A stretch of 44,179 nucleotides of DNA. Source: Archaeoglobales archaeon. Lineage in GTDB: Archaea; Halobacteriota; Archaeoglobi; Archaeoglobales; Archaeoglobaceae. How positions within the stretch are numbered: position 1 is the first letter of the stretch; each line of letters begins with the position of its first letter. The notes beneath the pieces were generated by a model. The model did no database searches. It had not been told where the DNA came from and saw only the letters and a list, made by a program, of their open reading frames with translations. This document shows positions 2,530-44,179 of the stretch, one piece after another. Both the position numbers and the translations under genes were made by a program. The stretch spans positions 1 to 44,179 of the forward strand of contig JARQZL010000069.1 in assembly GCA_029984855.1 (NCBI GenBank), read 5' to 3'.

Positions 2530-2861
2530 TCTCCCACCATGTAATCGATATAATATGTATCGTATTCATCATAACAGTGCATAAGCTTTGCCGTTTTGAC
2601 GGCTATGATGTGGGCACATGGCTTTTTTGCTTTGAGGTTGAACTGGAAATCCCGACATGTACAAAAGTTGTTATCAACTATATACTCGTGTTTGCCAATT
2701 ACAACAAAGAAGTCCCTGTACTTCTTAATGTTCCTGTCTCTCAGGTAGAAAAATGCCTTCTCACCCCTCTTTCCGTATTCGAGCAGAAGTGCTTTGTAAA
2801 GCTTGTAGTCAATTTTTTTTGCAGCTTTTACAACACTTTCCGGTAGCTTAAAACTCTTCAT
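2511..2861 (-). CDS. Small SWIM-type zinc finger protein
   Basis: This 116-residue basic protein has a SWIM zinc-binding signature, CxC...CxH: C67-T-C69 and C82-A-H84, about 12 residues apart. SWIM domains bind DNA or protein and often accompany recombination factors or appear as stand-alone small archaeal proteins. The N-terminal 60 residues are helical and Lys/Arg-rich, with no known enzyme motif. The start overlaps the end of the DUF2150-like gene by 14 bases and the end overlaps the TrmO-dUTPase fusion by 19 bases, so translational coupling is likely. The domain is clear; the partner and role are unknown. Confidence 0.85.
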   Translation of the reverse strand: MKSFKLPESVVKAAKKIDYKLYKALLLEYGKRGEKAFFYLRDRNIKKYRDFFVVIGKHEYIVDNNFCTCRDFQFNLKAKKPCAHIIAVKTAKLMHCYDEYDTYYIDYMVGEWRKRK

Positions 2862-3486
2862 CTGAGGAATCTATCTCGAGGAGAAGCATCACCGTGTTTA
2901 TCGCATCAACTCCATCAATCCAGTTGAGAACCATGCCATCTTCCGGCACTTCTATGTTTTCGGGCAGCTTTTCACCCTTGAAAACCTTTGCACCCGCTCT
3001 TGCAACTGCATCGAACGCTCCCTCAAAATCACCCCTCCTCTCTTTCTCTACAGCCTCCTTTACAAGGGTCTGCACATCCTTTTTGCTGATTTTTCCCTCT
3101 ATACAGTACTTTGCTGCCCTTACAACTGTTTTAAGCCCCTCTCTCACAAACTCGAAGAAATCACTTTTTAGAGGGTCCTCGAAGTTCACCTCTGTGTTGA
3201 GTATCCCTTCCATCCCCTCCAGTTCTGAAATCGCATTCTTCTTTGTTATCTCTCTTTCCTTCACAGCCCTTATGACATTGAGACATGCAACTACGAAGTC
3301 CTCCATCATCTGGTCGAAAACTGCAAGCGAATCAGCATCGTCTAAGTCCAACTCTGCCTCCCTTATCCTGTTGACCCAGTTGTTGAACCTGGTTTCGCTG
3401 TAGTAGTTCATTGTCCCGTCATTGGCAATGGTAGTTATAATACTTTTGTTTAACTTATCATCTGCAGAGCATCCATCATCAATCAT
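2848..3486 (-). CDS. DUF2150-like conserved archaeal protein
   Basis: The reading frame gives 212 residues, acidic and mostly helical. The stretch beginning MNYYSETRFNNWVNRI resembles the archaeal DUF2150 family, which has no assigned function. Two starts are possible. The ATG at 3486 overlaps the archease stop (ATGA), typical of coupled genes. The ATG at 3411 begins exactly where family similarity seems to begin and would give 187 residues; the 25 extra N-terminal residues look unlike the rest. Neither start has a strong ribosome binding site. It sits between archease and the SWIM protein in one overlapping operon, so a link to RNA processing is possible but is only inferred. Confidence 0.75.
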   Translation of the reverse strand: MIDDGCSADDKLNKSIITTIANDGTMNYYSETRFNNWVNRIREAELDLDDADSLAVFDQMMEDFVVACLNVIRAVKEREITKKNAISELEGMEGILNTEVNFEDPLKSDFFEFVREGLKTVVRAAKYCIEGKISKKDVQTLVKEAVEKERRGDFEGAFDAVARAGAKVFKGEKLPENIEVPEDGMVLNWIDGVDAINTVMLLLEIDSSDEEF

Positions 3487-3893
3487 ATATCAACAACAAC
3501 AAACGCATGCCATTCATCGTTCCTCTCAACCTTGAAGTTATGGAGAGTTATTGCCTTTGGTTCAACTTTAACCGCTCCTGCTTTCAGCTTTCCACCGTAA
3601 AGCTTTCCTCTGGCCTTTAAAGTGCCCTCTCTTTCAATTTCCACTTCCGCTCGCAAAGCAACGAAGAATTCTGTGCCAAACAGAAAAAGTAACTCGTTCA
3701 GCCAGTGATACAGGAGCATGTCTTCAGCCTCACCTTTCACTTCTATTTCCTTCTCGAGGCCATTTTCAAGTTTTTCAGTATAAACGAACGCATCACAGAA
3801 AGCGAGCGTTGCATTCTCCATGAGTTCTTCCAGTGTTCTGCCGAAAATCTCAAAGGCTATGTCGGCTGTGTGGTCAATGAATCGATACTTCAT
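3483..3893 (-). CDS. Archease, RtcB RNA ligase cofactor
   Basis: This 136-residue protein is full length for the archease family. It begins with the signature DHTADIAF (residues 7-14), including an acidic metal-binding residue (D11), and ends with VVVDI, where the family's other conserved acidic residue lies (D135). Archease speeds guanylylation and turnover of RtcB, the GTP-dependent ligase that joins tRNA halves after intron removal. No rtcB is in this window. It is the first gene of the minus-strand operon that ends with the tRNA-modifying TrmO fusion, which makes a tRNA-maturation theme plausible. A TATA-like CTTAAATATC (bottom strand) lies about 25 bases before the ATG, suggesting a leaderless message. 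Confidence 0.92.
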   Translation of the reverse strand: MKYRFIDHTADIAFEIFGRTLEELMENATLAFCDAFVYTEKLENGLEKEIEVKGEAEDMLLYHWLNELLFLFGTEFFVALRAEVEIEREGTLKARGKLYGGKLKAGAVKVEPKAITLHNFKVERNDEWHAFVVVDI

Positions 3894-3996
3894 GTATCAG
3901 GCTCGATTTACGGATATTTAAGTTCACCCTCATATTTAAACATTAAAAATCGAAAGACTTAAAGGTTAAAAAGTAAGGCATAAAGCGGGTGAGCAG

Positions 3997-4968
3997 ATGA
4001 GGTTCGGTGTTGAGTTCGTTCCCAATGTCAAGTACTATGAGCTTGAGTACTATGCCAAACTTGCGGAGGATAACGGCTTTGGTTATATGTGGATTACCGA
4101 TCACTACAACAACAGGAATGTTTATGCAACGTTAACTCTTCTGGCAATGAGAACGCGGGAAATGAAAATTGGTGCGGGAGTGGCAAACCCGTATCTTGCC
4201 CATCCGGCCGTTATTGCATCTGCAATTGCAACAGTTAATGAGGTAAGTGGGGGAAGGGCCATACTCGGGATTGCTGCGGGGGATAAGGTAACGTTTGAAA
4301 GAATAGGTGTGAAGTGGGAGAAACCACTCAGCAGGATAAAAGAGGCAGTTGAGGTGATAAGAGCCCTACACACTGGCAAACCCCTCAGTTATGAAGGTGA
4401 ATTCTTCAACTTAAAGGGTGCGAAGCTCGATTTTAAGACGGGAAGTATACCTATATACATCGGAGCGCAGGGGCCTAAAATGCTGAAGCTTGCAGCAGAA
4501 ATAGGCGATGGTGTGCTGATAAACGCCTCTCATCCAAAGGATTTTGAGGTTGCGATGAAAAACATGGAAATCAGGGAAAATTTTGATGTTGTAGCATATG
4601 CATCGCTGAGTATTGACAAGAACAGAGAGAAAGCGAGAAATGCAGCAAAAATCGTTGTTGCTTTTATAGTTGCCGGAAGCCCGGATTTGGTTTTCGAGAG
4701 GCACGGAGTTGATACAGGTAGTGTTGAAAATGTGAGAAATGCCCTAAACAATGCATTCGCAACCGGCGACTGGAAGTCCGTCCATGAAGCGGTTACGGAC
4801 GAGATGGTGGACATTTTCTCGATAAGTGGAACACCGGATGATGTTAAGGAGAGGATAGAAGAATTAAAGAAGGTTGGGGTAACGCAGGTTGTTGCCGGAA
4901 GTCCTCTCGGGCCAGACAAGGCAAAATCCATAAAGCTGATGGGAAAGGAGATAATTCCAGAGTTTTAG
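3997..4968 (+). CDS. mer: 5,10-methylenetetrahydromethanopterin reductase (F420-dependent)
   Basis: The 323-residue protein is a bacterial-luciferase-like TIM barrel of the Mer type. The N-terminus (MRFGVEFVPNVKYYELEYYA), WITDHYNNRN, and the Gly-rich GAGVANPYLAHPAV segment are typical of this family. Mer interconverts methylene- and methyl-tetrahydromethanopterin with coenzyme F420. In Archaeoglobales it works in the oxidative direction of the C1 branch, or in the reductive acetyl-CoA pathway. The start has a ribosome binding site (GGGTGA, 3987-3992), and an AT-rich TATA-like stretch precedes it. Its stop overlaps the stop of the convergent isomerase gene. It is a stand-alone gene, not clustered with other C1 genes here. 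Confidence 0.95.
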   Translation: MRFGVEFVPNVKYYELEYYAKLAEDNGFGYMWITDHYNNRNVYATLTLLAMRTREMKIGAGVANPYLAHPAVIASAIATVNEVSGGRAILGIAAGDKVTFERIGVKWEKPLSRIKEAVEVIRALHTGKPLSYEGEFFNLKGAKLDFKTGSIPIYIGAQGPKMLKLAAEIGDGVLINASHPKDFEVAMKNMEIRENFDVVAYASLSIDKNREKARNAAKIVVAFIVAGSPDLVFERHGVDTGSVENVRNALNNAFATGDWKSVHEAVTDEMVDIFSISGTPDDVKERIEELKKVGVTQVVAGSPLGPDKAKSIKLMGKEIIPEF

Positions 4969-5909
4969 TCAAAGTGTTTTGGAGAGATCTTCAGCTCTCC
5001 CTCCTCGAACACAGCATAGCCAAGCCTCTCTTTTATTACTAAGTAAGCCATCTCCGGAGGAATCGCCCCCATCTCGGTGATTATTACGTCTATATAGTCC
5101 CTTGGCGTTACGTCGAATGCGGGGTTTCTCACATTAACACCTTTAAGCTTCAGGATTTCTTCCGGTGCAACTTCGCTCGCTTCTCTCTCTTCTATTGTGA
5201 CAAGTTCACCGAAGAGCGTCTTCGGGCTGAACTTGTAGGTTTCAGCAGCTACCATGAACGGGACTTTTGCCTCTTTCGCAGATAGGGCGATCTGGGAAGT
5301 CCCTATCTTGTTTACCAAGGCACCATTGGCAGTTATCGTGTCGGCTCCCACAACGATGCAGTCAACCTCCTTCATGAAGTATCTCGCTGCAGAGTCAACT
5401 ATCAGTGTGGCAGGAATGCCAGCTTTGCTGAGCTCTCTTACGGTCAAATGACCCTGAAGTCTGGGCCTCGATTCGGTTGCAAAAACCTCCTCAATCTTAC
5501 CCTGTCTGAATGCCTCCTTTATCACGGAAAGAGCCGCTGAAGAATTACAGTGAGTCATTACCACAGAACCTTTCCTTATCCTCCTTGCTCCTATCTCTCC
5601 TATCTTTTCATGAGCCGTTTCAACCCATCTTATGAATTCCTCGCCTCTTTTTACAGCACTCCTTCTTTTTTCTTCATCGCTTTCCCCTTCGTAGCGCATC
5701 ACGTAATTAACGGCATTATACAGGCTTACGGCTGTGGGACGGGTGTTTAAAAGAATTTCCGCAGCTCTCTTCATCTTTTCATCAAATTCGCTATCAACAG
5801 ATTCTGCGAAATTCCTTAGTGTTTCCGCAGCAAACCTTGCTATTCTCGCCGCCCCTCTTATCTCCATACTCCTTATTTTCTCTGCCGCTTCTTCGACGAT
5901 CCAGAACAT
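4965..5909 (-). CDS. Ribose-1,5-bisphosphate isomerase (eIF2B-like family)
   Basis: The 314-residue protein belongs to the eIF2B alpha/methylthioribose-1-phosphate isomerase family. THCNSS carries C121 and GADTITANG carries D190, which match the catalytic Cys/Asp pair (C133/D202) of the Thermococcus ribose-1,5-bisphosphate isomerase at a constant offset. ESRPRLQG (146-153) and NKIGT are further family marks. The enzyme makes ribulose 1,5-bisphosphate in the archaeal AMP pathway that feeds form III RuBisCO. The AMP phosphorylase and RuBisCO genes are not in the window. A strong ribosome binding site (GAGGGGG) precedes the ATG. A translation-initiation regulatory role was the older annotation and is less likely. 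Confidence 0.9.
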   Translation of the reverse strand: MFWIVEEAAEKIRSMEIRGAARIARFAAETLRNFAESVDSEFDEKMKRAAEILLNTRPTAVSLYNAVNYVMRYEGESDEEKRRSAVKRGEEFIRWVETAHEKIGEIGARRIRKGSVVMTHCNSSAALSVIKEAFRQGKIEEVFATESRPRLQGHLTVRELSKAGIPATLIVDSAARYFMKEVDCIVVGADTITANGALVNKIGTSQIALSAKEAKVPFMVAAETYKFSPKTLFGELVTIEEREASEVAPEEILKLKGVNVRNPAFDVTPRDYIDVIITEMGAIPPEMAYLVIKERLGYAVFEEGELKISPKHFD

Positions 5910-6196
5910 TTTTTACCCCCTCAATTTATATTTTTCTTACTTCTTCTTCACTTTTTTAATCTTTCCTGACTTTTTAACTCAAATGCAGTTGCCCATCTGC
6001 TTTATATACTGCTACTTTTATTTCACTTCATAGCTTTGTCATAGCTTTGTCCGATAAAATAAAATGATTAAAAATTAAAGTTTTCGTCGTTCGAAAAAAT
6101 TCTGGAAATAAATAATTACAGAATCGGTCGAATTTTATTTTAATTCGTCTAACGTCTAACCATAGATTTAAATATGTCGAATTGAAGAATAGAATC
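5910..6196. other. AT-rich intergenic region with a short tandem duplication
   Basis: No convincing gene lies in these 287 bases. The left part holds the leader of the isomerase gene, with a TATA-like element (bottom strand GTATATAAAGC near 6000-6010). An 11-base unit TCATAGCTTTG is repeated exactly in tandem at 6028-6038 and 6039-6049. Further right are a palindrome-like CGAATT...AATTCG near 6129-6148 and a doubled GTCTAAC. The right end carries TTTAAATA, a likely TATA box for the small ORF at 6197. Whether the repeats bind a regulator is not visible. Confidence 0.5.
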
Positions 6197-6376
6197 ATGG
6201 AAATGCGAGAGATGCTGGCAAGACCTAATGAACTTGAGGGGGGAAAAGAAGAGGTCGTATGGCTCATAGAAGCAAGACTGTTTTTGAAGGATAAAAGGGA
6301 AACAGAGCTTTTTGTAAAGACCCTTGAAGATAAGGGCTTTCACGTTGAAACAAAGCCTTTAATATTTGAATACTGA
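6197..6376 (+). CDS. Small hypothetical protein upstream of thiC
   Basis: This ORF gives 59 residues from the ATG at 6197; an in-frame TTG at 6182 would add five. The product has a plausible protein-like pattern: a charged N-terminus, EVVWLIEARLFLKDKRE, then TLEDKGFHVETKPLIFEY. It has no Cys and no motif I recognise. TTTAAATA about 22-29 bases upstream would give a leaderless message, which favours the ATG. It ends 85 bases before thiC and runs in the same direction, but thiC has its own TATA box. It could be a small regulator or a chance ORF. Confidence 0.5.
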   Translation: MEMREMLARPNELEGGKEEVVWLIEARLFLKDKRETELFVKTLEDKGFHVETKPLIFEY

Positions 6377-6405
6377 TAAAAATACAAAATGAAGGGGGGT
6401 CTTCC

Positions 6406-6422
6406 GCTGAGCTTGGCTTAGC
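6406..6422 (+). promoter_or_regulatory. Palindrome just upstream of the thiC TATA box
   Basis: GCTGAGC and GCTTAGC form an inverted repeat separated by TTG, with one non-matching pair. It ends about 10 bases before the TATA element, immediately upstream of where the BRE would lie. That position suits an operator or activator site. An RNA hairpin is less likely, because transcription should begin downstream near the ATG. The regulator is unknown; a thiamine-responsive repressor is one possibility. Confidence 0.4.
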
Positions 6423-6432
6423 AAGCAAAGCA

Positions 6433-6440
6433 TTTATAAT
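6433..6440 (+). promoter_or_regulatory. TATA box of thiC
   Basis: TTTATAAT lies 22-29 bases before the thiC ATG, so transcription would start at or next to the start codon. This leaves no room for a riboswitch leader. Confidence 0.55.
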
Positions 6441-6461
6441 CATACATAAACACACTGTTTC

Positions 6462-7745
6462 ATGGAAACTTTAATAGAGCAGGCAAGGAAGGGAAAATAT
6501 CCGGGCTGGATTGAGGATGTTGCCCGGTTTGAAGAAATAGATGTTAATACTCTTCTCAGGCTTATCTCCAAAGGAGAGGTGGTCATCCCCAGAAACGTGA
6601 GAAGGGAATGTGTTCCCAAGGCAATAGGTAGATTCGTGAGAACAAAAATCAATGCCAACGTCGGAACTTCAATAGATTATGTGAATGTGGATGAAGAAGT
6701 GGAGAAGGCAAAAACAGCAGAGAAGTACGGGGCAGATGCTGTAATGGATTTATCAACAGGAGGTAGCATCGACGAAATCAGGAAGAGAATAATGAGGGAA
6801 GTAAATGTGCCTTTTGGAACCGTGCCAATCTATCAGGCTGCCCGAAGTGCGGGTGTTGTTGTGGAAATGGACGAAGACGACTTCTTTAAAGCTGTAGAAA
6901 AGCAGGCAAAGGACGGCGTTGATTTCATGACAATTCATGCTGGCGTTAATTGGACGAGTGTTGAAAGGCTCAAGAGGAGCAACAGGCTGCTTGGTGTGGT
7001 CAGCAGAGGCGGGGCAATAACCATCGGCTGGATGCTCCACAACGAAAAAGAGAATCCGTACTACGAGAACTTCGACTACCTTCTCGAGATTTTGAAGGAG
7101 TATGACATAACGATTAGCCTTGGAGATGCGTTCAGGCCAGGATGCATTCACGATGCAAGCGACAGAGTGAAGTTCATGGAGTTTATAGTTCTCGGAGAGC
7201 TTGTTGAGAAGTGCAGAAATGCTGGAGTCCAGGCAATGGTTGAGGGGCCGGGACACGTGCCAGTAGATGAAATCGAGACTTCAGTTAAGGCGATGAAATA
7301 TGTAACAAGAAATGCGCCGCTTTACCTTCTTGGCCCGCTCGTTACTGACATCGCAGCTGGTTATGATCATATTGCAGCAGCGATAGGTGCTGCAGTTGCG
7401 GGAATGTATGGAGCTGACCTGATATGCTACGTAACTCCGTCAGAACATCTTGCTCTGCCGGGGGTTGATGAAGTAAAGGAAGGAGTTATAGCTGCAAAGA
7501 TTGCCGCCCATGCAGCAGACCTCGTTAAAGAGGGGCAGAGGGAGAGGGCAAGGAGCATAGACTACGAGATGTCCCTCGCAAGGAAGAACCTCGACTGGGA
7601 AAAACAATTCAGGCTTGCAATAGACCCAGATAAGGCGAGAAAGATATGGAAAAACAGAAAATCGAAGAGTGAAGCATGCAGCATGTGTGGAGATCTGTGT
7701 GCAATAAAACTCGTTAAAGAAGCTCTTGAAAAAAAGAACATCTAA
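6462..7745 (+). CDS. thiC: Phosphomethylpyrimidine synthase ThiC
   Basis: The 427-residue protein is the archaeal short form of ThiC, a radical SAM enzyme that rearranges aminoimidazole ribotide into hydroxymethylpyrimidine phosphate for thiamine. Diagnostic segments are [44 protein letters not shown] and LGPLVTDIA...YDH. The C-terminal iron-sulfur cysteines are C406, C409 and C413 in CSMCGDLC, spaced CX2CX3C, whereas bacterial ThiC has CX2CX4C (CSMCGPKFC). I believe the shorter spacing is common in archaeal ThiC but cannot verify it. The stop overlaps the stop of the convergent small gene. No thiamine riboswitch is seen upstream. Confidence 0.97.
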
Positions 7746-7936
7746 AGCAGGTCTTTTGCTCTCTCGAGAAGATTTTCTCCCTCCTCAAATCTCTTTACAG
7801 CTTTAGCAAGCAGCTCTGAGGCTTCAGGGTTTATGTTTTTAATCTTTTCAGCCCACTCTGCATATTTTTCTGTATGTTCTCTGCTGTGCTCTATCCAGTG
7901 TTCGAGCAGATGCCTGAGCTTCTCATGTTCGGACAT
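7742..7936 (-). CDS. Small His/Glu-rich helical protein, unknown function
   Basis: The ORF encodes 64 residues: two predicted amphipathic helices and no hydrophobic core long enough for a membrane. The first helix carries five His ([18 protein letters not shown]), spaced so that several could lie on one face, which suggests metal binding. Similar short proteins occur in Archaeoglobales and methanogens, but I cannot name a family. A TATA-like element (GATATTTATATC, bottom strand near 7957-7968) sits 20-30 bases before the ATG, so it may be transcribed separately from the Mut7-C gene 44 bases upstream. It converges on thiC. Confidence 0.7.
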
Positions 7937-7980
7937 GAGAAACGGGCGTTATTGGCGATATAAATATCTTCCGTAGAGTG

Positions 7981-8463
7981 TTACTTTTTAATACCAGATT
8001 CTTTAAGAAAGCGAAGCATGTTTCTCCAGTGGCTCCCCATCCAGTAGAGCTTTCTACATTTCTCGCAGTACCAGAGCTCGTACCTCTCAAGGATATCGCT
8101 TCCCAGCTTCTCTCTTTCAATGACCTCTTTTGCCTCCTCTATGCTTGCTTTTCTAAGCAGGGTATTGCAGACACTGCACCTTCTCATCACTGGCTCGAAT
8201 TTCACACCCAATGCCATGACTTCTTTCATCTGCCCCTCGACGCTGTTTGATTTGATAAGATAAGCTTCTCTACCTGCTGATATGGCTCTTCTGTACAGTT
8301 CTCTGTCTTTTGTAAGCAAAATTCTGTCTTTGTGGTTGTGAACCATGTAGCTGTCTTCGTTCTCAACATTTAGATCGCCAGCGTAGAGAGTATCGTATCC
8401 CGAAATTCTCAACCAGGTTGCGAGCTTGCCCAGCATACGATCGCATATGAACTTAGCCTTCAA
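7981..8463 (-). CDS. Mut7-C RNase-domain protein (PIN-like fold with zinc ribbon)
   Basis: The 160-residue protein fits the Mut7-C family. It starts with FICDRMLGKLATWLRISGYDT, carrying the conserved Asp of the PIN-like nuclease core. It continues with D...ILLTKDREL, and ends with a zinc ribbon made of CSVCNTLLR and WYCEKCRKLYW (two CxxC pairs). Mut7-C proteins are predicted RNases; substrates are mostly unknown. It overlaps the end of the HD-domain gene by 11 bases, so the two are translated together. Family is clear, substrate unknown. Confidence 0.9.
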   Translation of the reverse strand: MKAKFICDRMLGKLATWLRISGYDTLYAGDLNVENEDSYMVHNHKDRILLTKDRELYRRAISAGREAYLIKSNSVEGQMKEVMALGVKFEPVMRRCSVCNTLLRKASIEEAKEVIEREKLGSDILERYELWYCEKCRKLYWMGSHWRNMLRFLKESGIKK

Positions 8464-8974
8464 GTCTCAGCCACCACCTCGGGTCTGTTTTTCTTATAAC
8501 CTCTGCAAGCTTTTTTGCAGTTTCAGTTTTGAATTCAAGTCTTTCAACATACGCCATGACAGAAGGATGAGATTCAGAGTACTCTCTGGCCTGGAGGAGA
8601 AGCTCGAGTCTGTCTGCATCCTTAACAAACTTTTGCAGTTCTTCTGTTTTAATCACGTTCTGAATTTCCTCAGGCAGAAGCTCAAGCTGCTCCCTGATTG
8701 CTTTTTTATCAACACTCACGTACTTCTTAGATAGTCTGTGGAGGTCAAGTGTTCTGCTCTCCTGAAGATCATGAAGTAACGCAAGAAAAGCTGCTCTGCC
8801 AGCCTTTGCTTCATCTTCGGTTTCAAGGTATGTGAGAATAAATGCTATGAGGGCAGTTCTAAAGGAGTGCTCTGCAACGCTTTCCGGATTCTTTATTCCT
8901 GCTTTGAGCCAGCCAGAGCGGGGAACGAGTTTGAGCGACCCGGCTTCGAAGAGGAACCTGACAATATTTTCCAT
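8453..8974 (-). CDS. HD-domain phosphohydrolase, YfbR-like 5'-nucleotidase
   Basis: The 173-residue protein has the metal-binding residues of an HD hydrolase: H36 in AEHSFRTAL, H68-D69 in LLHDLQESRT, and an Asp in KDADRLELLLQAREY. The E-S-V-A-E-H-S arrangement is typical of the archaeal/YfbR group, which removes phosphate from deoxynucleoside monophosphates. It heads a short minus-strand operon with the Mut7-C gene. The exact nucleotide specificity is inferred from family only. Confidence 0.88.
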   Translation of the reverse strand: MENIVRFLFEAGSLKLVPRSGWLKAGIKNPESVAEHSFRTALIAFILTYLETEDEAKAGRAAFLALLHDLQESRTLDLHRLSKKYVSVDKKAIREQLELLPEEIQNVIKTEELQKFVKDADRLELLLQAREYSESHPSVMAYVERLEFKTETAKKLAEVIRKTDPRWWLRLEG

Positions 8975-9113
8975 ATCTGATGTATGATGTGGCGTATTAA
9001 TTCTTTATCTTCCGTCTGGATGATGAATCTCTTCAATGGGAAACTTAAAAGAAACAATAACTGTAATGAACCGTACAGATGGGAGACATCCAGAAAAATA
9101 CTGACTGGCTCTC

Positions 9114-11426
9114 TCAGAGAAGAGTAGCACAGGAAATACCCTTTCTACTCACTATAACTCCTCTGGCACTTCTTCCCTGCCTCGGTATCGACTTGACTTC
9201 AGTTCTGAGAGCATACCCGTCTCTGCTTACTGTCAGCAGCTCTTCAGTACCTTCCACATACTCCGCAAATACAACATTGCCTTTTGCGTTTATGACGCCC
9301 CTTGCCCCTCTTGAAACAAGTCTGTACCCTTTAACTGCACTCCTCTTTCCGTATCCATCTTCCATCAATGTCAGTATATCTCCACTGCCCCGTATGCACG
9401 TGAGCCAGGCTATAGAGTCATTATTTCTGAGAGAGATTGCTTTTACTCCTTTTGCACCCCTTCCATAAGTTGGAATGTCTTCAGCCTTAAACCTCACTGC
9501 GTATCCATTCTTTGTTGCTATGAAGACCTCCTCTCCATTAAGGAGCCTTGCAAATGATATAACGCCAGAGGAGGCGATAATCCCGGCTCTTTTTGCATTT
9601 TCAAATTCTGAAAGAGGAGTTCTCTTTATGTACCCGTCCTCGGTGAGTATGAGCAGTTCTCCGGTAAAATCTTGAAATGGTACAGCCGCAGTTATTCTCT
9701 CTTCTTCCGGAATAGACAGATGCATCCTGATACTTGTACCCTTTCCAAGCCTGTCCTGTTTTGGAATCTCATACGCATGTAACCAGTACGCCTTAGATTC
9801 TGTAAAGATGAGGAGCTTATCTTTTGAGTTGCATCTGATGACGAGGAATGGTACACTATTGTTTCTCCCGGCAAGTACGCCCACACCACCTCTCTGCTGG
9901 AGCTTGAACTCCAGACCCATTCTCTTTACATAACCGTTCTTCGTAAAGAGTAGCAGGTTATCTTCCGAGGCAATAAGTTCTTCTTCGGATATTTCGTACT
10001 CTCCTGCAGCTATCTCCGTCCTTCTACCATCACCGTACTTTTCTTCTATCTCTTTCAGCTCTGAGACCACAATTTCATCGATTCTATGTGAAGAAGCGAG
10101 TATTTCTGTATACTCCTTTATTTTCATGGTAAGTTCTTCGTACTCTCTTATTAAGGCACTTATCTCCATTGCTGTGAGTTTCTGAAGTCGTGTCTGAAGA
10201 ATTGCAACTGCCTGCACCTCACTAAGTCTGTATTTCTCTGTAAGAGCTTTTTTTGCCTCTTCAGGAGAGCTTGAAGATTTTATGAGCTGAATCACATTGT
10301 CTATATCCTCCACTGCTCTTTTTAAACCCTCTACTATGTGCAGTCTCTCTCTTGCTTTTTTGAGCTCATATTGCGTTCTCCTTTTGATGACAGTCCTTCT
10401 GTGCTCGATGTAGCACTCTATGAGTTCTTTGAGGTTGAGAATTCGTGGCTCGTTATCTACAAGTGCGAGAAGGGTTATTCCAAAGGTCGTCTGAAGGCTG
10501 GTGTAAGCGTAAAGCTTTTTGAGAGCTGTGTTTATGTCTTCTCTGACCTCTACAACTATTCTTATACCTTCCCTATCTGATTCGTCCCTAACAGTCCTTG
10601 CACTGAGTCGCCCCTCGCTGATCAGCTTGGCTATTTTTTCAACCAGACGTGACTTGTTAACCATGTAGGGAACTTCTTTTATCACGATTGTTGTGTCCTC
10701 AACTTCAACTCTCCCTCTGACCGTTATCTTACCCTTTCCAGTTTCGTAGGCTTCTATAAGGCCCTCTCTACCAACGATGATGCCACCTGTGGGAAAATCT
10801 GGAGCCCTGATATATCCGGTAAGCTCCCTTACTGTTATGTCCGGATTTTTTATGCAGGCTATTACAGCATTGCAGACCTCACGAAGGTTGTGTGGAGGGA
10901 TATTTGTAGCCATACCGACAGCTATTCCACTGCAACCATTTATGAGCAGGTTTGGAATTTTTGCGGGCAGAACGACAGGCTCTTTAAGAGTGGCATCGAA
11001 GTTAGGTATAAAATCAACTGTATCTTTGTTCAGATCCGTAAGCATCTCTTCGGCTATTTTTGCGAGCCTCGCTTCTGTATATCGCATTGCTGCCGGTTCA
11101 TCGCCATCAATACTGCCGAAGTTCCCCTGTCCATCCACAAGCGGGTAACGCATTGCAAAATCCTGAGCCATTCTAACCAGCGCATCGTAAACAGCAGCAT
11201 CGCCATGAGGGTGGTATTTACCAAGAACGTCTCCAACTATTCGGGCACACTTTCTGTATGGCCTGTTGCTCGTGAGCCCCATCTCATGCATTGCATATAA
11301 AATCCTGCGCTGTACTGGCTTTAAACCATCCCGGACATCGGGCAGAGCCCTTCCGGCTATTACACTCATTGCGTAATCAATATATGAGCTCCTCAATTCG
11401 TGGCTTATTTCCCGGAGCAACTCCAT
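9114..11426 (-). CDS. gyrA: DNA gyrase subunit A
   Basis: The 770-residue protein is a full-length type IIA topoisomerase A subunit. The breakage-reunion domain includes [11 protein letters not shown], the CAR-type segment [18 protein letters not shown], and catalytic Tyr116 in AMRYTEAR. The C-terminal third is the beta-pinwheel DNA-wrapping domain, with a GyrA box-like QQRGGVG and repeated GRGAKG/SRGARG/GRSARG blade motifs. The box supports gyrase rather than topoisomerase IV. Gyrase adds negative supercoils and was acquired from bacteria by several euryarchaeal lineages, including Archaeoglobus. gyrB is not adjacent. A TATA box (GCCTTATAAACC, bottom strand of 11446-11457) lies just over 20 bases before the ATG. 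Confidence 0.97.
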
Positions 11427-11445
11427 TGGCCGGCAGTATACTGGG

Positions 11446-11491
11446 GGGTTTATAAGGCTATCCCGTTTTGACTTAGCAACTTACTTTTAAC
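11446..11491. promoter_or_regulatory. Divergent promoters of gyrA and dphB
   Basis: Only 85 bases separate the gyrA and dphB start codons. On the bottom strand GCCTTATAAACC serves gyrA; on the top strand TTACTTTTAAC (11481-11491) lies about 21 bases before the dphB ATG. Both messages would be leaderless. The two promoters face apart with about 25 bases between the TATA elements, so binding at one may affect the other. Confidence 0.5.
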
Positions 11492-11511
11492 CCCGCTGCA
11501 GGCAGTCATAC

Positions 11512-12270
11512 ATGCTGACCTTCATAGGCATGGGCCTGTGGGATGAGAAGGATATCTCTCTCAAAGGAGTAGAGGCTGCAAGAAGTGCGGACGTTGTTTG
11601 CGTTGAGTTCTATACCTCAAAGCTGGTGGGAACTGAGATCAAAAAAATAGAGGAGTTGATAGGGAGAGAAATCAGGGTTCTTGACAGGGGCGATCTTGAG
11701 GATAACTCAAAGTCTCTGATAGAGGAGGCAAAGAAGAAGAATATTGCTGTTCTGGTACCCGGCGACCCGATGGTTGCTACCACTCACTCTGCAATGAGAA
11801 TTGAGGCGGAGCGCATGGGGGTGAGAACAAAAATCATTCATGGAGCAAGTATAATCTCTGCAGTTTGCGGACTTACGGGTTTACACAACTACAGGTTTGG
11901 AAAGTCTGCGAGCGTTGCATATCCATACGGAAAGCCCTCAAGAACACCTGTCAATGTTGTAAAGCAGAACTGGAGCATAGATGCCCATACTTTACTCTTT
12001 CTTGATTTACATCCTGAACCGATGCTCATACCAACTGCCGTGGAGATTTTAAGAGAGGCAGGACTCGACAACTGCTATGCAGTTGGAGTTGCAAGAGCCG
12101 GTAGCGATGAACCTGTTGTTAAATGCGACACCCTTGAGAAACTTGGAAAATACGATTTTGGAGGAGGTCTGCATGTTCTGGTCGTTCTTGCAGCTCTTCA
12201 CTTTATGGAGTATGAATGCCTGAAAACATTTGCTTCCGCTCCGCCAGAAATTGAAGGGCTTGTAGAGTGA
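11512..12270 (+). CDS. dphB: Diphthine synthase
   Basis: This 252-residue protein is a class III SAM-dependent (tetrapyrrole methylase-fold) methyltransferase. FIGMGLWDEKDIS at the start, VPGDPMVATTHS in the middle and IHGASIISAVCGLTGLHNYRFGKS are signature stretches of archaeal DphB (Dph5). It trimethylates the modified histidine of elongation factor 2, the step after Dph2 in diphthamide synthesis; dph2 is also in this window, at 19.4-20.3 kb. Length is normal. It appears to be a single-gene unit read away from gyrA. Confidence 0.95.
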   Translation: MLTFIGMGLWDEKDISLKGVEAARSADVVCVEFYTSKLVGTEIKKIEELIGREIRVLDRGDLEDNSKSLIEEAKKKNIAVLVPGDPMVATTHSAMRIEAERMGVRTKIIHGASIISAVCGLTGLHNYRFGKSASVAYPYGKPSRTPVNVVKQNWSIDAHTLLFLDLHPEPMLIPTAVEILREAGLDNCYAVGVARAGSDEPVVKCDTLEKLGKYDFGGGLHVLVVLAALHFMEYECLKTFASAPPEIEGLVE

Positions 12271-12360
12271 CTTAATTGTTGCTGCATTATTGATAATAGA
12301 ATTTAATAAATTAATCAATTGAGAAAGATGTATATAGGGCAATAAATAAACAAAATCAGT

Positions 12361-13770
12361 ATGCTGCATGAGTATATAGTCTGGCTGAAGCGAATAGTCG
12401 AGAACCCTGCAGCAAAGTCTGTTATAAAGAGACTTTCTTCTCCAAAGAGAATAGACTCCGTTCTTGCAGCATATGCCGGCCTGAGGCAGGCCAAAGGCAT
12501 TACTGAAAAAAGCTATTACGCAATAATATCAAGGGCTGTTAAAAAAGCTGCGGAGAAGTTTGGAATCGATGAGACTTTGCTTAAGGAGGGACTCAAAGAT
12601 CCGTACTACAGGAGGGGGCTTGCAGGTGTTTTGAGAAGCATTGCAGAATATGGAATTACAATGCCCCAGAAGCTGTATGCACCATTTCTTGTGGTCTGGA
12701 ACTTTACAAAGAAGTGCAATCTGAGGTGCAAGCACTGTTATGCAAATGCTGGAAAGGCCGTAAACGAGTTAAGTCTTGATGAAAAGCTTGAAGTGGTTAA
12801 CCAGCTCGATGATGCTGGAGTGGTGGCCATCTCTTTCTCTGGAGGAGAGCCGCTGATACACAGAGACTTCTGGAAGGTGGCAACTCATGCATCTCAGAAA
12901 GGATTTCATCTGAGTGTTGCAACAAATGGAACGCTGATAGATAGAGAGGTGGCGAGAAAGCTTGCCAGATTGAACTTCGGGTACGTTGAGATAAGCCTCG
13001 ATGCAACCAGGCCGGAGATACATGATCACTTCAGAGGTGTTAAAGGAGCATTTGATAAAGCTGTTAAAGGCATAAAATCGTGCGTGAATGAAGGACTGTT
13101 TGTGGGAATTGCCACAACTGCAACCAAGTTAAATCTTGAGAACATTCCAGAGGTTATAGATTTCGCAACCGAACTCGGTGCAGGGAGAGTTATCGTTTTT
13201 AATTTCATACCGACTGGCAGGGGAAAGGAGAACGCACAGCTCGATTTGAGTCCAGAGGAGAGAGGAAAGCTTCTTGAGTACCTCTACGACAGACTCGAGG
13301 AGGGAAAAATCCAGGTATTTTCGACCTCACCGACATATGCTGCGGTTGCGATGCAGAGAATTGCGGCCAGAAAGGGAAAAAGGATAACACCCACTCACTT
13401 TGCAAATGTCGAACTTACGAACATGGAGAAGTATGGAAATGCGACAATAGTGCTTTCCGAGTTCATTGGAGGATGTGGAGCGGGAAGGCTGTACTGCGGG
13501 ATAGAACCAAATGGGGATGTTACACCCTGTGTTTTCATGCCAATAGTTGTTGGCAATGTTATAAAGGACGGTTTTCTCAACGTCTGGCAGGAAAGTGAGC
13601 TGCTTGAGAAGTTGAGGAACAGAGATGCAGAAAAATACGCATGCAGGGATTGTGAGTACCGCTACATCTGTGGAGGTTGCAGGGCGAGAGCCTATGCCTA
13701 CAGTGGAGACGTGCTTGCCCCCGATCCTGGCTGCCACATCGTAAAGTTTGTGAAGGCACAAGGATTTTAA
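12361..13770 (+). CDS. Radical SAM / SPASM-domain protein
   Basis: The 469-residue protein has a helical N-terminal extension of about 105 residues, then the radical SAM CX3CX2C motif (C119, C123, C126) and GGEPL. A C-terminal SPASM region has many cysteines: CGAGRLYCGIEPNGDVTPC and CRDCEYRYICGGC, then C in PDPGCH. It should bind one SAM-cleaving and one or two auxiliary Fe-S clusters. Relatives include heme-pathway AhbC/AhbD, tungsten-cofactor maturases and peptide maturases. No small precursor peptide or aldehyde oxidoreductase gene is nearby, so the substrate cannot be told from context. A TATA-like TGTATATA near 12329 precedes the ATG by about 25 bases. Confidence 0.88.
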   Translation: MLHEYIVWLKRIVENPAAKSVIKRLSSPKRIDSVLAAYAGLRQAKGITEKSYYAIISRAVKKAAEKFGIDETLLKEGLKDPYYRRGLAGVLRSIAEYGITMPQKLYAPFLVVWNFTKKCNLRCKHCYANAGKAVNELSLDEKLEVVNQLDDAGVVAISFSGGEPLIHRDFWKVATHASQKGFHLSVATNGTLIDREVARKLARLNFGYVEISLDATRPEIHDHFRGVKGAFDKAVKGIKSCVNEGLFVGIATTATKLNLENIPEVIDFATELGAGRVIVFNFIPTGRGKENAQLDLSPEERGKLLEYLYDRLEEGKIQVFSTSPTYAAVAMQRIAARKGKRITPTHFANVELTNMEKYGNATIVLSEFIGGCGAGRLYCGIEPNGDVTPCVFMPIVVGNVIKDGFLNVWQESELLEKLRNRDAEKYACRDCEYRYICGGCRARAYAYSGDVLAPDPGCHIVKFVKAQGF

Positions 13771-13792
13771 CCACCTCCAATCTTTTTTACCT

Positions 13793-15331
13793 ATGAAAGG
13801 GGCGGTTGGAAGGATATGCGGTGATGCTTCACCTACAGAATTCAGCTTCATTGTTTTCGATCCCAAGAGTGTCAGGCATACCGATTACATCAAAGCATGG
13901 AACGATGTCGATGGGTGGGTTATGGCCCAAGTTGTTGATATAAAAGCAACATCAGACATCAGCGAGAGTGAGATACTTCAGGGAAGAAATGTGGAAAAAG
14001 AGCTTTATCTTGCCAAAGCGGTTGTTATAGGAAAGAGGGATGAAAGAGGGATGCTGAGAATTCCAAAAACACCTTTTGTTCCGGGAGAGAACGTTTTCAA
14101 AGCTGAGGAGGATCTGGTGGTTGACGTTCTCGGGCTGGAAAAAGATGGCATTTATCTGGGATTGCTTGATGATACTCAAATAAAAGTCAACCTTGATCTG
14201 AACTCGTTTGTTCAGAAGCACTGCTGCATCCTCGCAAAAACCGGAAGTGGGAAGAGTTATACTGCAGGGGTTATCATAGAGGAGTTAATTGAAAAAGGCG
14301 CCCCCCTCTTTATAATTGACCCGCATGGTGAATATGCAACGCTGAAAGAGCCGAACAGGAATGAAGGAGAGCTGGAAAGAATGGAAATCTTTGGAGTTAA
14401 GCCAAAAGGGTACTCCAACGTGATGATCTACGTCCCTCCAAACTCTCCCTTCGTTGACAGAGCTGATGGAGTACTGAAACTTGACGGTACGAATCTTACT
14501 GCTGAAGAGATAGTTGAACTTGCGGGAATTACCAGTTCAACCTCTCAGGCATTGCTCTATCAGGCTATAAAGAACCTGAAGGACAGGAATTACACGATAG
14601 AAGACGTCATTCAGGAGGTTGAGTCGATAAAGCACAACGCAAAGTGGGCACTTCTCGGCCATCTGGAAAAAATAGTTGAAGCAGGCCTCTTTAATGAGAA
14701 TCCAACACCTGTAAACGCTCTCCTTCAGAAAGGAAAGGCGATAGTTCTTGATATGCGGGGTATCCCGCCTGAACATCAGGATCTGATAGTTTCAAGGATA
14801 TGCCACAAACTTTTCGAGCTGAGAAAGCGTGATGACGTGCCGGCGGGCATGATTGTGCTTGAAGAAGCACATAACTTTATCCCGGAGAGGGGGATGGGTA
14901 AGGCTGTTTCAACACCAGTATTGCGAACCATTGCAAGCGAGGGCAGAAAATTTGGGCTCGGTCTGATGGTTATCAGCCAGAGGCCGGCAAGGGTGGACAA
15001 GAACGTTATAAGTCAGTGCAACACTCAGATAATCCTCAGAGTTACAAACCCCAATGACATCAATGCGATAAAAAGAGGGGTTGAGGGGTTAACTGCTGAA
15101 ATGGTCGATGAGGTAAGGCGTTTACCGCCGGGAACGGCAATTGTTGTAAGTCCGGAGCTTGAGAGACCGGTAATTGTGAGCGTGAGAGTTAGAAAGAGTA
15201 TGCATGGTGGGCAGGCGGTGAATATCATCGAGAAAAAGAGGGGTTTTTTCAAGGCTGGAAAGAAAGATAAAAAGAAGGATAGAGGATTAAAGAAGAGGGA
15301 AAAAAGCTTCTTTGAGAAGATGTTTGGGTGA
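13793..15331 (+). CDS. herA: HerA-type DNA translocase ATPase
   Basis: The 512-residue protein has an N-terminal beta-barrel (HAS-barrel) region up to about residue 140. A FtsK/HerA-type ATPase core follows, with Walker A AKTGSGKS (148-155), IDPHGEY, Walker B IVLEEAHNFIP, and the arginine-rich SQRPARVDKNVISQCNTQII. The C-terminal 30 residues are very rich in Lys. HerA hexamers pump DNA and in many archaea work with the NurA nuclease and Mre11-Rad50 in end resection. Here no nurA follows. Instead herA is joined to a UPF0212 gene and a Cas4-like gene. Only 22 bases separate it from the radical SAM gene. Confidence 0.9.
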   Translation: MKGAVGRICGDASPTEFSFIVFDPKSVRHTDYIKAWNDVDGWVMAQVVDIKATSDISESEILQGRNVEKELYLAKAVVIGKRDERGMLRIPKTPFVPGENVFKAEEDLVVDVLGLEKDGIYLGLLDDTQIKVNLDLNSFVQKHCCILAKTGSGKSYTAGVIIEELIEKGAPLFIIDPHGEYATLKEPNRNEGELERMEIFGVKPKGYSNVMIYVPPNSPFVDRADGVLKLDGTNLTAEEIVELAGITSSTSQALLYQAIKNLKDRNYTIEDVIQEVESIKHNAKWALLGHLEKIVEAGLFNENPTPVNALLQKGKAIVLDMRGIPPEHQDLIVSRICHKLFELRKRDDVPAGMIVLEEAHNFIPERGMGKAVSTPVLRTIASEGRKFGLGLMVISQRPARVDKNVISQCNTQIILRVTNPNDINAIKRGVEGLTAEMVDEVRRLPPGTAIVVSPELERPVIVSVRVRKSMHGGQAVNIIEKKRGFFKAGKKDKKKDRGLKKREKSFFEKMFG

Positions 15332-15336
15332 GGGGG

Positions 15337-40227: not shown

Positions 40228-42822
40228 CTATTGAGTCACATCCTGGCCTATTATCTGCAGAATCTTTTCGTGCAAGGCTTTCAGTACTTTTCTACGATCC
40301 TCCATAAGCACAACATCTTCTTCTCCAAGCATGTATATGTTGAAAGCAAATGGGCTCGGATAAGGCGTTCTGGTTATTTTTACTTTGACTTCACTACCGA
40401 TCCTCTCAAGATAATCAAGGGCATTTTTCAAGTCCATTGAATCCTCCATTATCTCTCTATAAGTCTCCTTAAGAACGGGAAATTCTGGGAAATTTCTTTT
40501 GAGGAGTCTCAGTAGTGTGTCGGCATTTAGCTGCTGCCTCCATACACTCTTTTCTCTGCCGAGGTAGTTGCGCAGGATCATCATGCTCCTCACTGCTACA
40601 TGCCTGAACCTTCTCCTCAAAATCTCTGTCCTGTCAAGGGCTTTAATCAGATGTTCTTTGAAGCTCTCTACACTGAAAAGCTCAATGATCTCCCTGTCCC
40701 TCAAAACCTTTGTCAGCGGGAGAATGAGCATAAATCCGTTATCGTTCAGGGCAATCTGGACGTTGCAATCCTTCTTTAAGCCAGCACGGTAAGCAAACAC
40801 TCTCGAGATTGCACTGTTAGCCTTTCTGCCGATAAGCGTGTGGAAGACGTAGTAATTTCTATCCTCCTCGAACTTCTCAACAATGAGTTCTCTATCTGTT
40901 GGTATTTCGCTGAATAGCTTTTGTTCGAGGAAGTAGCGATATATTGCCGTTGCAGCATTTCTCTCCAAGCTGTACTCCTCCGTAAGCCATCCAATGATCT
41001 CTGTTTCGCTCCAGCTCTCCAGCATGGATTTCATTTTCCCTCTAAACCGCTGGATTCTCAACGCAAGATCGTAGCTCAGAGGGAGCTGCTCTGAAAACCA
41101 GCTTGGAACAGTCGGTTTCTCACCTTCAACCTCCTCAACGATTATACTCATGCCCTTTGAATGCAGAAACCGGAATGTTCTGCCAGCAAGCACGAAGATG
41201 TCTCCTTTTACCAGCCTCTCCGCAAACTCCTCCTCAACCTTTCCAACTCTCCTCTTGTCTTTTGTTATAACAGATATGGCAACTTCATCCGGAATTGTTC
41301 CGACGTTGAGGTAGTAGATTGGCCTTGCGAGTTTGCCCCTTCTACCAAAAACCTCCTCTTTTTCATCAAACCATATCTTCCCGTACACCCTTTTCTTCTC
41401 AAGTTCTGAATAGCTGCCAGAGAGATAGCGAAGAACTTCAATGAACTCAGACTTTGAGAGATTTCTGTAGGGATAAGCCTGTCTTATCACCGTCAAGGCT
41501 TCATCAACACTCCATCGCTTTTCAATGGCCATTCCTGCAACGTGCTGGCAGAGAACATCAAGGGGTTTTTGTGGAATTTCAATTCTATCAAGCCTTCTTT
41601 CAATTGCCTCTCCTGCAAGAACCGTGCACTCAACGAGGTCGTCCTGATCAACAACAATGATTCTTCCAGTGCTTGTCTCATCCAGACGATGTCCGCTCCT
41701 TCCTATTCGCTGCAAAGCCCTGTTTATGCTCTTTGGCGAACCAAGCAGAACAACAAGGTCTATATATCCTATATCTATTCCAAGCTCGAGGCTCGTTGAA
41801 GAAACAACGCACCTCAATCTACCATGCTTCAAATCCTCCTCAACATCGAGCCTGACCTCCTTTGAGAGAGAGGAGTGGTGAGCTTTGACTGGAAAATCCT
41901 TTCCGAGCTTCTTCTTAAGATAGTAAACAACTCTCTCGGTTGCACTTCTCGTGTTTGTAAATATCAGCGTTGTTCTCGATGATTTTACAAGTTTTGCGAG
42001 TAAATCGTAGAGATTTACACTTACCTCTTCGGCGGTTGCAGTAAAGAAGTCATCTATGGGGGAGATAACCTTTATGTCCATAGGCTTTGCAAACGTTACG
42101 TCTGCGACGATGCAATCTCTTGCATGTCCCCCCTCACAGCCAACGAGAAATTTTGCAACCTCATCGAGCGGGGCTATTGTTGCAGAAAGACCGATTCTAA
42201 CCATCTTACCCTCCTGAATTCTTTGTAATCTCTCCATTGAAAGAGCAAGATGACTGCCACGCTTGTTTTCGGCAATTGAGTGGATCTCATCCACTATCAG
42301 GAACCTGAGTTTTGTTAAAGCCCTCGAGAACTTCGGACTTGAAAGGACAATAGCAAGTGTTTCTGGAGTGGTTATCAGGATGTGGGGTGGGCTTCTGAGC
42401 TGTTTTTGTCTTTCAGATTGTTCAGTATCGCCCGTTCTTACTCCAATCCTTATTGGCTGGAGCTTTATACCTTTCTGTCTGGCAATCCCGTAAATCTCAG
42501 CAAGAGGTTCTTCGAGATTGCGCTTTACGTCGTTATTCAGGGCACGAAGAGGGGAGACGTAAATAACGTAAACTCTGCTCTCAAGTTCTTTCTTCTCTGC
42601 AAGGTCAACGAGCATGCTTATGGCTGCGAGAAAGGCTGCAAGTGTTTTACCACTTCCAGTTGGTGATGTAACAAGGATGCTGTTACCTCTGAATGCTTCC
42701 ACTATTGCATAACGCTGCGGAGGTGTAAAAGTAGAATACTTCGACAGAAACCACTCCTTAACAAGGGGGTGGAGTGTTTCAAGTATTTCTGCGTCGCTGT
42801 ACGCCTTTCCCTCACTGATCAT
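40228..42822 (-). CDS. Lhr-type superfamily 2 DNA/RNA helicase
   Basis: From the ATG at 42822 the protein has 864 residues. It has the SF2 motifs: FTPPQRYAI (Q motif region), TSPTGSGKT, YVSPLRALNNDV, VDEIHSI, LSATIAP, TNTRSATERV, STSLELGIDIG and NRALQRIGRSGHR. The winged-helix/Lhr core region follows. Archaeal Lhr proteins unwind DNA and RNA-DNA hybrids and are tied to repair or RNA handling. The frame stays open to 42933, but those codons run into a CRISPR repeat, so the shorter start is preferred. It also has a TATA-like TATTTTAAG (bottom strand 42848-42856) in the right place. Confidence 0.92.
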   Translation of the reverse strand: MISEGKAYSDAEILETLHPLVKEWFLSKYSTFTPPQRYAIVEAFRGNSILVTSPTGSGKTLAAFLAAISMLVDLAEKKELESRVYVIYVSPLRALNNDVKRNLEEPLAEIYGIARQKGIKLQPIRIGVRTGDTEQSERQKQLRSPPHILITTPETLAIVLSSPKFSRALTKLRFLIVDEIHSIAENKRGSHLALSMERLQRIQEGKMVRIGLSATIAPLDEVAKFLVGCEGGHARDCIVADVTFAKPMDIKVISPIDDFFTATAEEVSVNLYDLLAKLVKSSRTTLIFTNTRSATERVVYYLKKKLGKDFPVKAHHSSLSKEVRLDVEEDLKHGRLRCVVSSTSLELGIDIGYIDLVVLLGSPKSINRALQRIGRSGHRLDETSTGRIIVVDQDDLVECTVLAGEAIERRLDRIEIPQKPLDVLCQHVAGMAIEKRWSVDEALTVIRQAYPYRNLSKSEFIEVLRYLSGSYSELEKKRVYGKIWFDEKEEVFGRRGKLARPIYYLNVGTIPDEVAISVITKDKRRVGKVEEEFAERLVKGDIFVLAGRTFRFLHSKGMSIIVEEVEGEKPTVPSWFSEQLPLSYDLALRIQRFRGKMKSMLESWSETEIIGWLTEEYSLERNAATAIYRYFLEQKLFSEIPTDRELIVEKFEEDRNYYVFHTLIGRKANSAISRVFAYRAGLKKDCNVQIALNDNGFMLILPLTKVLRDREIIELFSVESFKEHLIKALDRTEILRRRFRHVAVRSMMILRNYLGREKSVWRQQLNADTLLRLLKRNFPEFPVLKETYREIMEDSMDLKNALDYLERIGSEVKVKITRTPYPSPFAFNIYMLGEEDVVLMEDRRKVLKALHEKILQIIGQDVTQ

Positions 42823-42847
42823 TGTGGATACATGTTGGATGATGATG

Positions 42848-42856
42848 CTTAAAATA
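42848..42856 (-). promoter_or_regulatory. TATA box of the Lhr-type helicase gene
   Basis: The bottom strand reads TATTTTAAG about 26-34 bases before the ATG at 42822, predicting a leaderless message. It supports this ATG over the upstream ones. Confidence 0.45.
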
Positions 42857-42898
42857 GTTCGTTTGAATTGAGTCGGAATCGGGATGAAGGTATAGATG

Positions 42899-43052
42899 TA
42901 CAGCAGTTCTGATTTCAACCCCGTTACCTGCACGAGTTTATAGCATTCTCAACTTCCTTTCAATCCTACAATAGTCTGATTTCAACCACATTCGAGTTCT
43001 TTGACGACTTCACAACATTAGATACTTTCAATCCTACAAATAGTCTGATTTA
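42899..43052 (-). CRISPR. Small decayed CRISPR array, about three repeats and two spacers
   Basis: A 30-base repeat (42957-42986) begins on the top strand CTTTCAATCCTACAATAG and ends TCTGATTTCAAC. A second copy at 43025-43052 matches for the first 27 bases but has one inserted A, and its end is altered (GATTTACC). A third, at 42899-42919, keeps only the TACA...TCTGATTTCAAC part. The two gaps between repeats are 37 and 38 bases and unrelated to each other, as spacers are. On the bottom strand the repeat reads GTTGAAATCAGA...GGATTGAAAG, the form known from Archaeoglobus, with the 8-base ATTGAAAG handle. That puts any leader on the right. No cas operon is in the window. Confidence 0.75.
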
Positions 43053-43070
43053 CCTTAACTCTACAGCAAA

Positions 43071-43079
43071 CTTTATAGC
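43071..43079 (+). promoter_or_regulatory. TATA box of the tyrosine recombinase gene
   Basis: CTTTATAGC lies 22-30 bases before the ATG at 43101 and only 18 bases from the last CRISPR repeat, so a leaderless message is likely and little room remains for a CRISPR leader. Confidence 0.45.
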
Positions 43080-43100
43080 TATAAGAGTCAAAATAGTATC

Positions 43101-44179
43101 ATGGAACTCGAAGAGTTTGAGGAAGTGAGGCGATGGCTCAACAACGTCAAGGAAGGGAGCAAGCCATCCTACAGAGCAGGACTGAGACTTTTCTGCGAGT
43201 GGTGTGGACTAAATCCGACTCAGCTCCTTGACGAGGCTGAGGAAGATAGGAAGAAGTCAAGAAGGGAAAGAGGTAAGCCCGAAGCAAGGCTGATGGAATT
43301 CTACAACTATCTTATAAACGAGAAGAAGGTGGCGAAGAAGACCGCAACGCTGTACTTCACAGCAGTCAGGAGTTTTTACAAGTGGAACGGCTTTCCTTTG
43401 AACGTCAAAACTCCAAAAGCTGCACCGAAGAAGGAGAACAGGAAAGCAGCCATAACTCCAGAAATTGTCAAAAAGCTTGTTGACCACGCTCCCACGTTAA
43501 GGGATAGGGCTATCATCCTGTTTCTATTCCAGGGAGGATTCGACGTCTCAACGCTCTGCAGCCTTAACTACGGAGACGTGAAGAACGAGCTCGAAAGCGG
43601 AAAGGTTCCCATGATGATTTACGTCGTAAGGGAGAAGGAGGAAGTTGAGTACTTCACTTTCGTTGGAAGAGATGCGGTTGAGGCGTTGAAGGCTTATCTG
43701 AACGATAGAAGGGCGAAGGGAGAAGAGATGAAGTTGGATACTCCCCTCTTCATAAAGGATAAGGCAAAAAGGAGGAAGGGAGAGAGAATCAGCCCGCACC
43801 ACATTCAGAACATGCTCAGGGAGACCGCAATCAAGGCTGGACTGATAACGAAAGAGGAGATGGAAAAAGTTGACTTCAATCCGTACAGGCCGCACGCTCT
43901 GAGGGCAGCCTTTTCATCGATACTAAGGCTGAACGGATTCGACCCAGTGCTTGTCGAGTTCATGATGGGACACTCAATTCCATACAATGGGGCTTACCTG
44001 ATACCTCCGCCTGAGGAGGTGAGGCAGATGTACGCTGATGTTGAGCCTCAGCTCAGCATATCCACGGCTGTGAAGGATGTCAGTGAGATTGAGGAGAAGC
44101 TTGAGACGTACAAGAAGATACTCGAAGATGTGCAGGCTGAGAACAAGAAGCTCAGAGAGCAGTTCAATACCTTGTGGGA
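43101..44179 (+). CDS. Tyrosine recombinase/integrase, runs off the right edge
   Basis: The open frame gives at least 359 residues with no stop before the window ends. Residues 1-110 form a SAM-like core-binding domain (KPSYRAGLRLFCEWCG). The catalytic domain has HALR (H265, R268), GHS (H291) and a Tyr near MYADVEPQL (Y311) as the likely nucleophile. The first catalytic Arg, normally in a GLRISEL-type box, appears as D148 (GGFDVSTLCSL). After the Tyr a coiled coil of about 30 residues follows (VSEIEEKLETYKKILEDV). Proteins of this shape occur in archaeal plasmids and proviruses; a chromosomal XerA would be shorter and keep the Arg. It lies directly beside the CRISPR relic. Confidence 0.85.
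   Translation, partial: MELEEFEEVRRWLNNVKEGSKPSYRAGLRLFCEWCGLNPTQLLDEAEEDRKKSRRERGKPEARLMEFYNYLINEKKVAKKTATLYFTAVRSFYKWNGFPLNVKTPKAAPKKENRKAAITPEIVKKLVDHAPTLRDRAIILFLFQGGFDVSTLCSLNYGDVKNELESGKVPMMIYVVREKEEVEYFTFVGRDAVEALKAYLNDRRAKGEEMKLDTPLFIKDKAKRRKGERISPHHIQNMLRETAIKAGLITKEEMEKVDFNPYRPHALRAAFSSILRLNGFDPVLVEFMMGHSIPYNGAYLIPPPEEVRQMYADVEPQLSISTAVKDVSEIEEKLETYKKILEDVQAENKKLREQFNTLW

Follow-up and report, generated by a model that had tools for sequence, protein, structure and literature searches.

Organization of the locus

The window, a contig of 44,179 nt from an Archaeoglobales archaeon, carries at its right end a gene for an Lhr-type helicase, a short CRISPR array and a gene for a tyrosine recombinase of the integrase type (Table 1). 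The genome to which it belongs, hereafter G000, is a draft of 154 contigs and a member of the same genus as genome G019.

The list of open reading frames places the helicase at 40228–42933. The alignment with its G019 orthologue begins at residue 36 of this longer frame, so that the start is most likely the ATG at 42822, and the array is therefore intergenic, about 85 bp outside the helicase gene.

The CRISPR array at 42908–43051 is confirmed as real. In RNA sense, on the minus strand, it reads AAATCAGACTATTTGTAGGATTGAAAG, a 38-nt spacer, GTTGAAATCAGACTATTGTAGGATTGAAAG, a 37-nt spacer and GTTGAAATCAGA, with repeats of 27 and 30 nt followed by a half repeat and a repeat spacing of 68 and 67 nt. 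The two spacers, S1 and S2, are unique, mutually unrelated and uniform in length. The coordinates, the spacer lengths and the sequence of one intact, one nearly intact and one half repeat given in the first-pass annotation agree with the sequence. Its description of both outer repeats as damaged fits the terminal half repeat, which is degenerate, as are terminal repeats at the trailer ends of arrays in relatives; the outer repeat at 43025–43051, however, looks like a junction rather than the result of simple decay. The same annotation had seen too little space for a leader. Roughly 50 bp, including a TATA-like palindrome, are in fact left, but this stretch corresponds to the likely promoter region of the integrase, which occupies the leader side, and the CRISPR leader of the genus is absent. 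The locus is therefore a fragment and not a complete CRISPR locus.

The palindrome is likely the promoter of the integrase gene, as suggested by its conservation, and could also drive the minus strand. Homologues of the integrase are encoded in genomes of other genera, with 93% protein identity in G014 and 87% in G027; none was found in the viral contigs or plasmids searched. The gene continues beyond the contig through a 127-bp assembly overlap (window 44053–44179) with two contigs. In C120 (19168–19294) the continuation encodes a C-terminus matching those of G014 and G027, and in C89 (1–127) a different C-terminus; a rearrangement or a population variant is a possible explanation of the two 3′ ends. 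C120, in which the integrase element continues, shares several kilobases with G014 at 88% identity. Its region 1763–15332 contains defence-like genes, namely those for an HmaA-like helicase, an HmaB-like methylase divided between two separate ORFs, a PLD-like protein and an AAA ATPase.

Table 1. Features of the CRISPR fragment and its surroundings in the window, and related repeat units on other contigs of G000.
Feature	Position	Strand	Basis or remark
Lhr-type helicase, start ATG 42822	40228..42822	-	G019 orthologue alignment
Terminal half repeat GTTGAAATCAGA, trailer side	42908..42919	-	sequence; direct repeat
Spacer S2, 37 nt	42920..42956	-	sequence
Intact 30-nt CRISPR repeat GTTGAAATCAGACTATTGTAGGATTGAAAG	42957..42986	-	100% identity to G019 22-repeat array
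Spacer S1, 38 nt	42987..43024	-	complement TFEFFDDFTTLD; 21/21 nt match, G004 DUF2341 gene
Outer repeat AAATCAGACTATTTGTAGGATTGAAAG, 27 nt	43025..43051	-	interpreted as chimera
Putative att core AATAGTCTGATTT, 13 nt	43039..43051	+	same 13 nt upstream of G014 integrase
TATA-like palindrome ACTTTATAGCTATAAGAGT	43070..43088	.	conserved upstream of G014 and G027 integrases
Tyrosine recombinase (integrase), runs off contig end	43101..44179	+	Pfam PF00589, E 1.9e-16
C62:2200	C62, unit 2155-2244		repeat + half repeat, leader
C43:857	C43, unit 857-901		repeat + half repeat
C42:4263	C42, unit 4263-4307		repeat + half repeat
C154:3989	C154, unit 3989-4033		repeat + half repeat
C154:2241	C154, 2197-2270		degenerate repeat, leader
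C92:4844-5100	C92, 4806-5115		four-repeat array; leader; half repeat after last repeat

Repeat type and cas genes

The intact repeat is identical over 30/30 nt to repeats of a G019 array with 22 repeats, a leader and spacers of normal length; an identical copy also lies at C62:2200 in G000. A second array in G019, with 68 repeats differing in one base, adjoins genes for Cas3, Cas5b, Cas7b, Cas8b, Cas6, Cas1 and Cas4, which represent a type I-B set. In a pattern search, related repeats were detected in 29 of 55 genomes of the family, mostly in arrays. The repeat is not a chance similarity, because the 30-mer is identical to that of the G019 array and many members of the family have long arrays built from the motif.

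The absence of a cas operon from the window locus, reported in the first-pass annotation, holds. Two Cas1 genes are encoded elsewhere in G000. Since each is located next to csa1 and their products are 25–26% identical to the Cas1 of the I-B set of G019, a cognate I-B Cas1 was not found in G000 among these two genes.

Spacers

The 21-nt match in G004 indicates that S1 may be derived from a DUF2341-like gene. Apart from this partial match, neither spacer has a convincing counterpart in phages, in 57 genomes of the order or, when searched as 20-mers, in IMG/VR; the lone IMG/VR match of S2 was rejected, as its alignment does not extend. The first-pass annotation had proposed a comparison with relatives to see whether the gaps are ordinary intergenic sequence; both spacers are absent upstream of the helicase gene in G019, G022 and G014. 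The G018 fragment ended short of this spot.

Junction of the outer repeat with the integrase element

Nucleotide similarity to the integrase locus of G014 begins at 43038, within the outer repeat, and extends rightwards at 84%. The core AATAGTCTGATTT corresponds to the complement of the 5′ half of the CRISPR repeat, and in both G000 and G014 its end lies 49 bp ahead of the start codon (ATG) of the integrase gene. The sequence upstream of the integrase reads CATAAAATAGTCTGATTTAGCTTAATTCTACAG in G014 and CTACAAATAGTCTGATTTACCTTAACTCTACAG in the window. To the left of the core the window runs on into the CRISPR repeat CTTTCAATCCTACAA; the G014 sequence there is unrelated. A match of at least 12 nt between a 70-nt stretch and the repeat of G014 was obtained in about one of 20,000 random windows (windows over the site excluded). 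The outer repeat is thus interpreted as a chimera, in which 43025–43038 would derive from the array and 43039–43051 would be common to the integrase element; it carries one extra A relative to a clean crossover. The suggestion of the first-pass annotation that the array is a remnant separated from a larger array by the recombinase next to it gains support here, with the outer repeat as the probable site at which a CRISPR repeat was joined to the left end of the integrase element.

Neither an attR nor a second core turned up in the G000 draft, where the element crosses contig ends, or within about 80 kb of the G014 copy. The core varies within the family, because G027 and the G019/C109 pair have other sequences at the corresponding position.

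A comparable arrangement is present in G020 (C112, 1–877), where an array with 12 full repeats breaks off within the 13th, 48 bp before the ATG of an integrase 44% identical to that of the window. This array has the opposite orientation, and its break lies at another position in the repeat. The integrase relatives in G013 and in G020 (C113) have a tRNA gene upstream, and tRNA genes are the usual archaeal integration target (PMC8371274). Most of the integrase homologues have no CRISPR sequence nearby. On contig C105 (about 206–221), a tRNA-Thr gene is followed, after 16 nt, by a 16-nt half repeat of the A. fulgidus type (GTTGAAATCAGACCAA), which may likewise stem from recombination at a CRISPR-like sequence or may be due to chance.

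Repeat units elsewhere in the genome

Eight further full-length copies of the window repeat type, along with degenerate ones, are located on five other contigs of G000 (Table 1). At C62, C43, C42, C154:3989 and the last repeat of C92, a second copy of the 15-nt 3′ half of the repeat follows directly after the repeat. In C62, C42 and C154 the two 3′ halves are identical, including locus-specific variant bases. About 46 bp of the leader of the G019 arrays are present just upstream at C62, C92 (twice) and C154:2241; among stand-alone repeats, leader or promoter-like sequence is found only at C62 and C154:2241. The first-pass annotation had regarded dispersal as a non-CRISPR repeat as a sign against a CRISPR origin. 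Solo copies do exist, but their dispersal does not refute CRISPR identity, because some carry the leader and the motif is a true repeat, arranged in arrays, in relatives.

Most of the five units trailed by a half repeat are located between genes of one large accessory element, and two such loci have a leader. Genes of C154, C92, C43 and C62 have homologues in a single region of G022 (about 444–485 kb); C42 could not be placed in this syntenic region. The accessory region includes phage-like genes (rIIA-like, DUF2201, RNase H) and Csx3, the gene for the latter, which is related to cyclic oligoadenylate, being located at C154 1110–1418. That the solo units are an old feature of the region was rejected, since the syntenic region of G022 has none. 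The third spacer of C92 (5033–5070) matches over 26/27 nt a G019 gene for a membrane protein of unknown function (C1:19348), which is located within a block common to G025.

The pattern of repeat and half repeat gave no true match outside G000 in the genome and viral contigs searched. The single match among genome contigs, within a protein-coding gene in an Aquificaceae MAG, was discarded as chance, and the viral contigs gave zero matches. The predicted RNA structure of repeat plus half repeat is no better than that of shuffled sequences. The solo units resemble virus-borne mini-CRISPRs or RNA anti-CRISPRs.

Origin of the fragment

The window array is probably the trailer end of a larger array, from which it was separated through recombination between an integrative element and one of the repeats; we assign this reading a probability of about 0.6. 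Two spacers, one intact repeat and a degenerate terminal repeat would then be what is left at the trailer end of a parent array whose repeat type, in this genus, is found beside I-B cas genes. An element encoding a tyrosine recombinase would have joined the chromosome at a repeat, with removal of the leader side of the array. The recombinase would recognize the short core corresponding to the complemented 5′ half of the repeat, and strand exchange would leave an attL in which the half repeat from the array abuts the core, the palindromic promoter and the integrase. Such a course implies a former leader-side half of the array, and a present-day fragment that is either silent or transcribed solely from the back-to-back promoter of the integrase. 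At the right-hand junction, the right end of the element would be expected to border AATAGTCTGATTTCAAC, with spacers and a CRISPR leader beyond it. That the junction was made by this particular integrase is what we infer rather than observe, because neither attR nor a second core was found, the outer repeat has an extra A, the G020 case differs in detail and the core varies.

It is possible, although rather unlikely, that the array is a plain decayed remnant beside which the integrase arrived independently, with the half repeat of G014 being a coincidence or a passenger from some earlier location. Degenerate repeats often terminate the arrays of relatives, and both the missing attR in the G000 draft and the lack of CRISPR sequence near most integrase homologues are in line with such decay. 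The 13-nt match to G014 at the same 49-bp distance and with different flanks is, however, unlikely to arise by chance, and the G020 array is broken at a nearly equal distance from its integrase.

The proximity of a short array to an integrase also recalls mini-CRISPR arrays of archaeal viruses, which would make the array a cargo of the integrase element used against competing elements, and another large element in G000 does carry such units. We consider this improbable: the array is absent from the nearest relatives of the element, those of G014 and G027, the similarity to G014 begins inside the outer repeat, and the leader of the genus is missing at the window array. Still further down in probability, and hardly credible, is a seed array formed by off-target spacer integration by Cas1-Cas2, an origin offered in the first-pass annotation. 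The array is short and lacks the leader of the genus, in keeping with such an origin, but seed arrays take a duplicated local sequence as their repeat, and the repeat of the window agrees over 30/30 nt with a CRISPR repeat found in a related genome.

Comparison with known systems

Integration of prophages into the CRISPR loci of Streptococcus pyogenes is already known (Varble 2021, cited in PMC10651486). It resembles the reading proposed here in that a mobile element lies within a CRISPR array and uses repeat-like sequence; the window differs in presenting an archaeal tyrosine-recombinase element, an array reduced to two spacers and a single visible junction. With the classical (non-suicidal) tyrosine recombinases of archaea (PMC8371274), the window shares an intact integrase directly beside the presumed attachment site; it differs in that the proposed target is a CRISPR repeat. 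In its consulted part, PMC8371274 names tRNA genes, coding genes and intergenic sites as targets, CRISPR repeats not being among those listed there.

The other repeat loci of G000 resemble the mini-CRISPR arrays of SPV1 and SPV2 (PMC6858448): they are single repeats or short arrays in accessory DNA, some of them with a leader of host type, and cas genes are lacking. The stand-alone repeats of SPV1 and SPV2 have no recognizable leader (PMC6858448), whereas in G000 a leader accompanies the stand-alone repeat of C62, the degenerate one of C154 and the short array of C92, and a 15-nt half repeat follows. Racrs and solitary repeat units (PMC10651486) combine a single repeat with promoter-like sequence in accessory DNA, an arrangement seen in G000 at C62 and C154:2241 only. 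The G000 units differ from Racrs in the attached partial second repeat and in the presence of several copies per element. SRUFinder requires that no partial repeat be present within the flanking 100 bp (PMC10651486); the solo units of G000 would be discarded by this rule, because the 15-nt half repeat follows directly.

Significance

The mobile DNA of this lineage might exploit CRISPR repeats in two ways, as an att site at which arrays are beheaded and as decoy or minimal-array units with a distinct half-repeat design. The second part of this reading supposes that the solo units of the large element, consisting of leader, repeat and half repeat, interact with the CRISPR machinery of the host, either as decoy RNAs or as minimal arrays. 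Taken as a whole, this twofold reading is doubtful. If true, the solo units would add to the known mini-CRISPRs and RNA anti-CRISPRs a design that occurs in several copies and is trailed by a half repeat. If the integrase does target the repeat, the locus would represent an archaeal mobile element whose insertion into a CRISPR array harms immune memory, at a 13-nt core that is open to experimental test.
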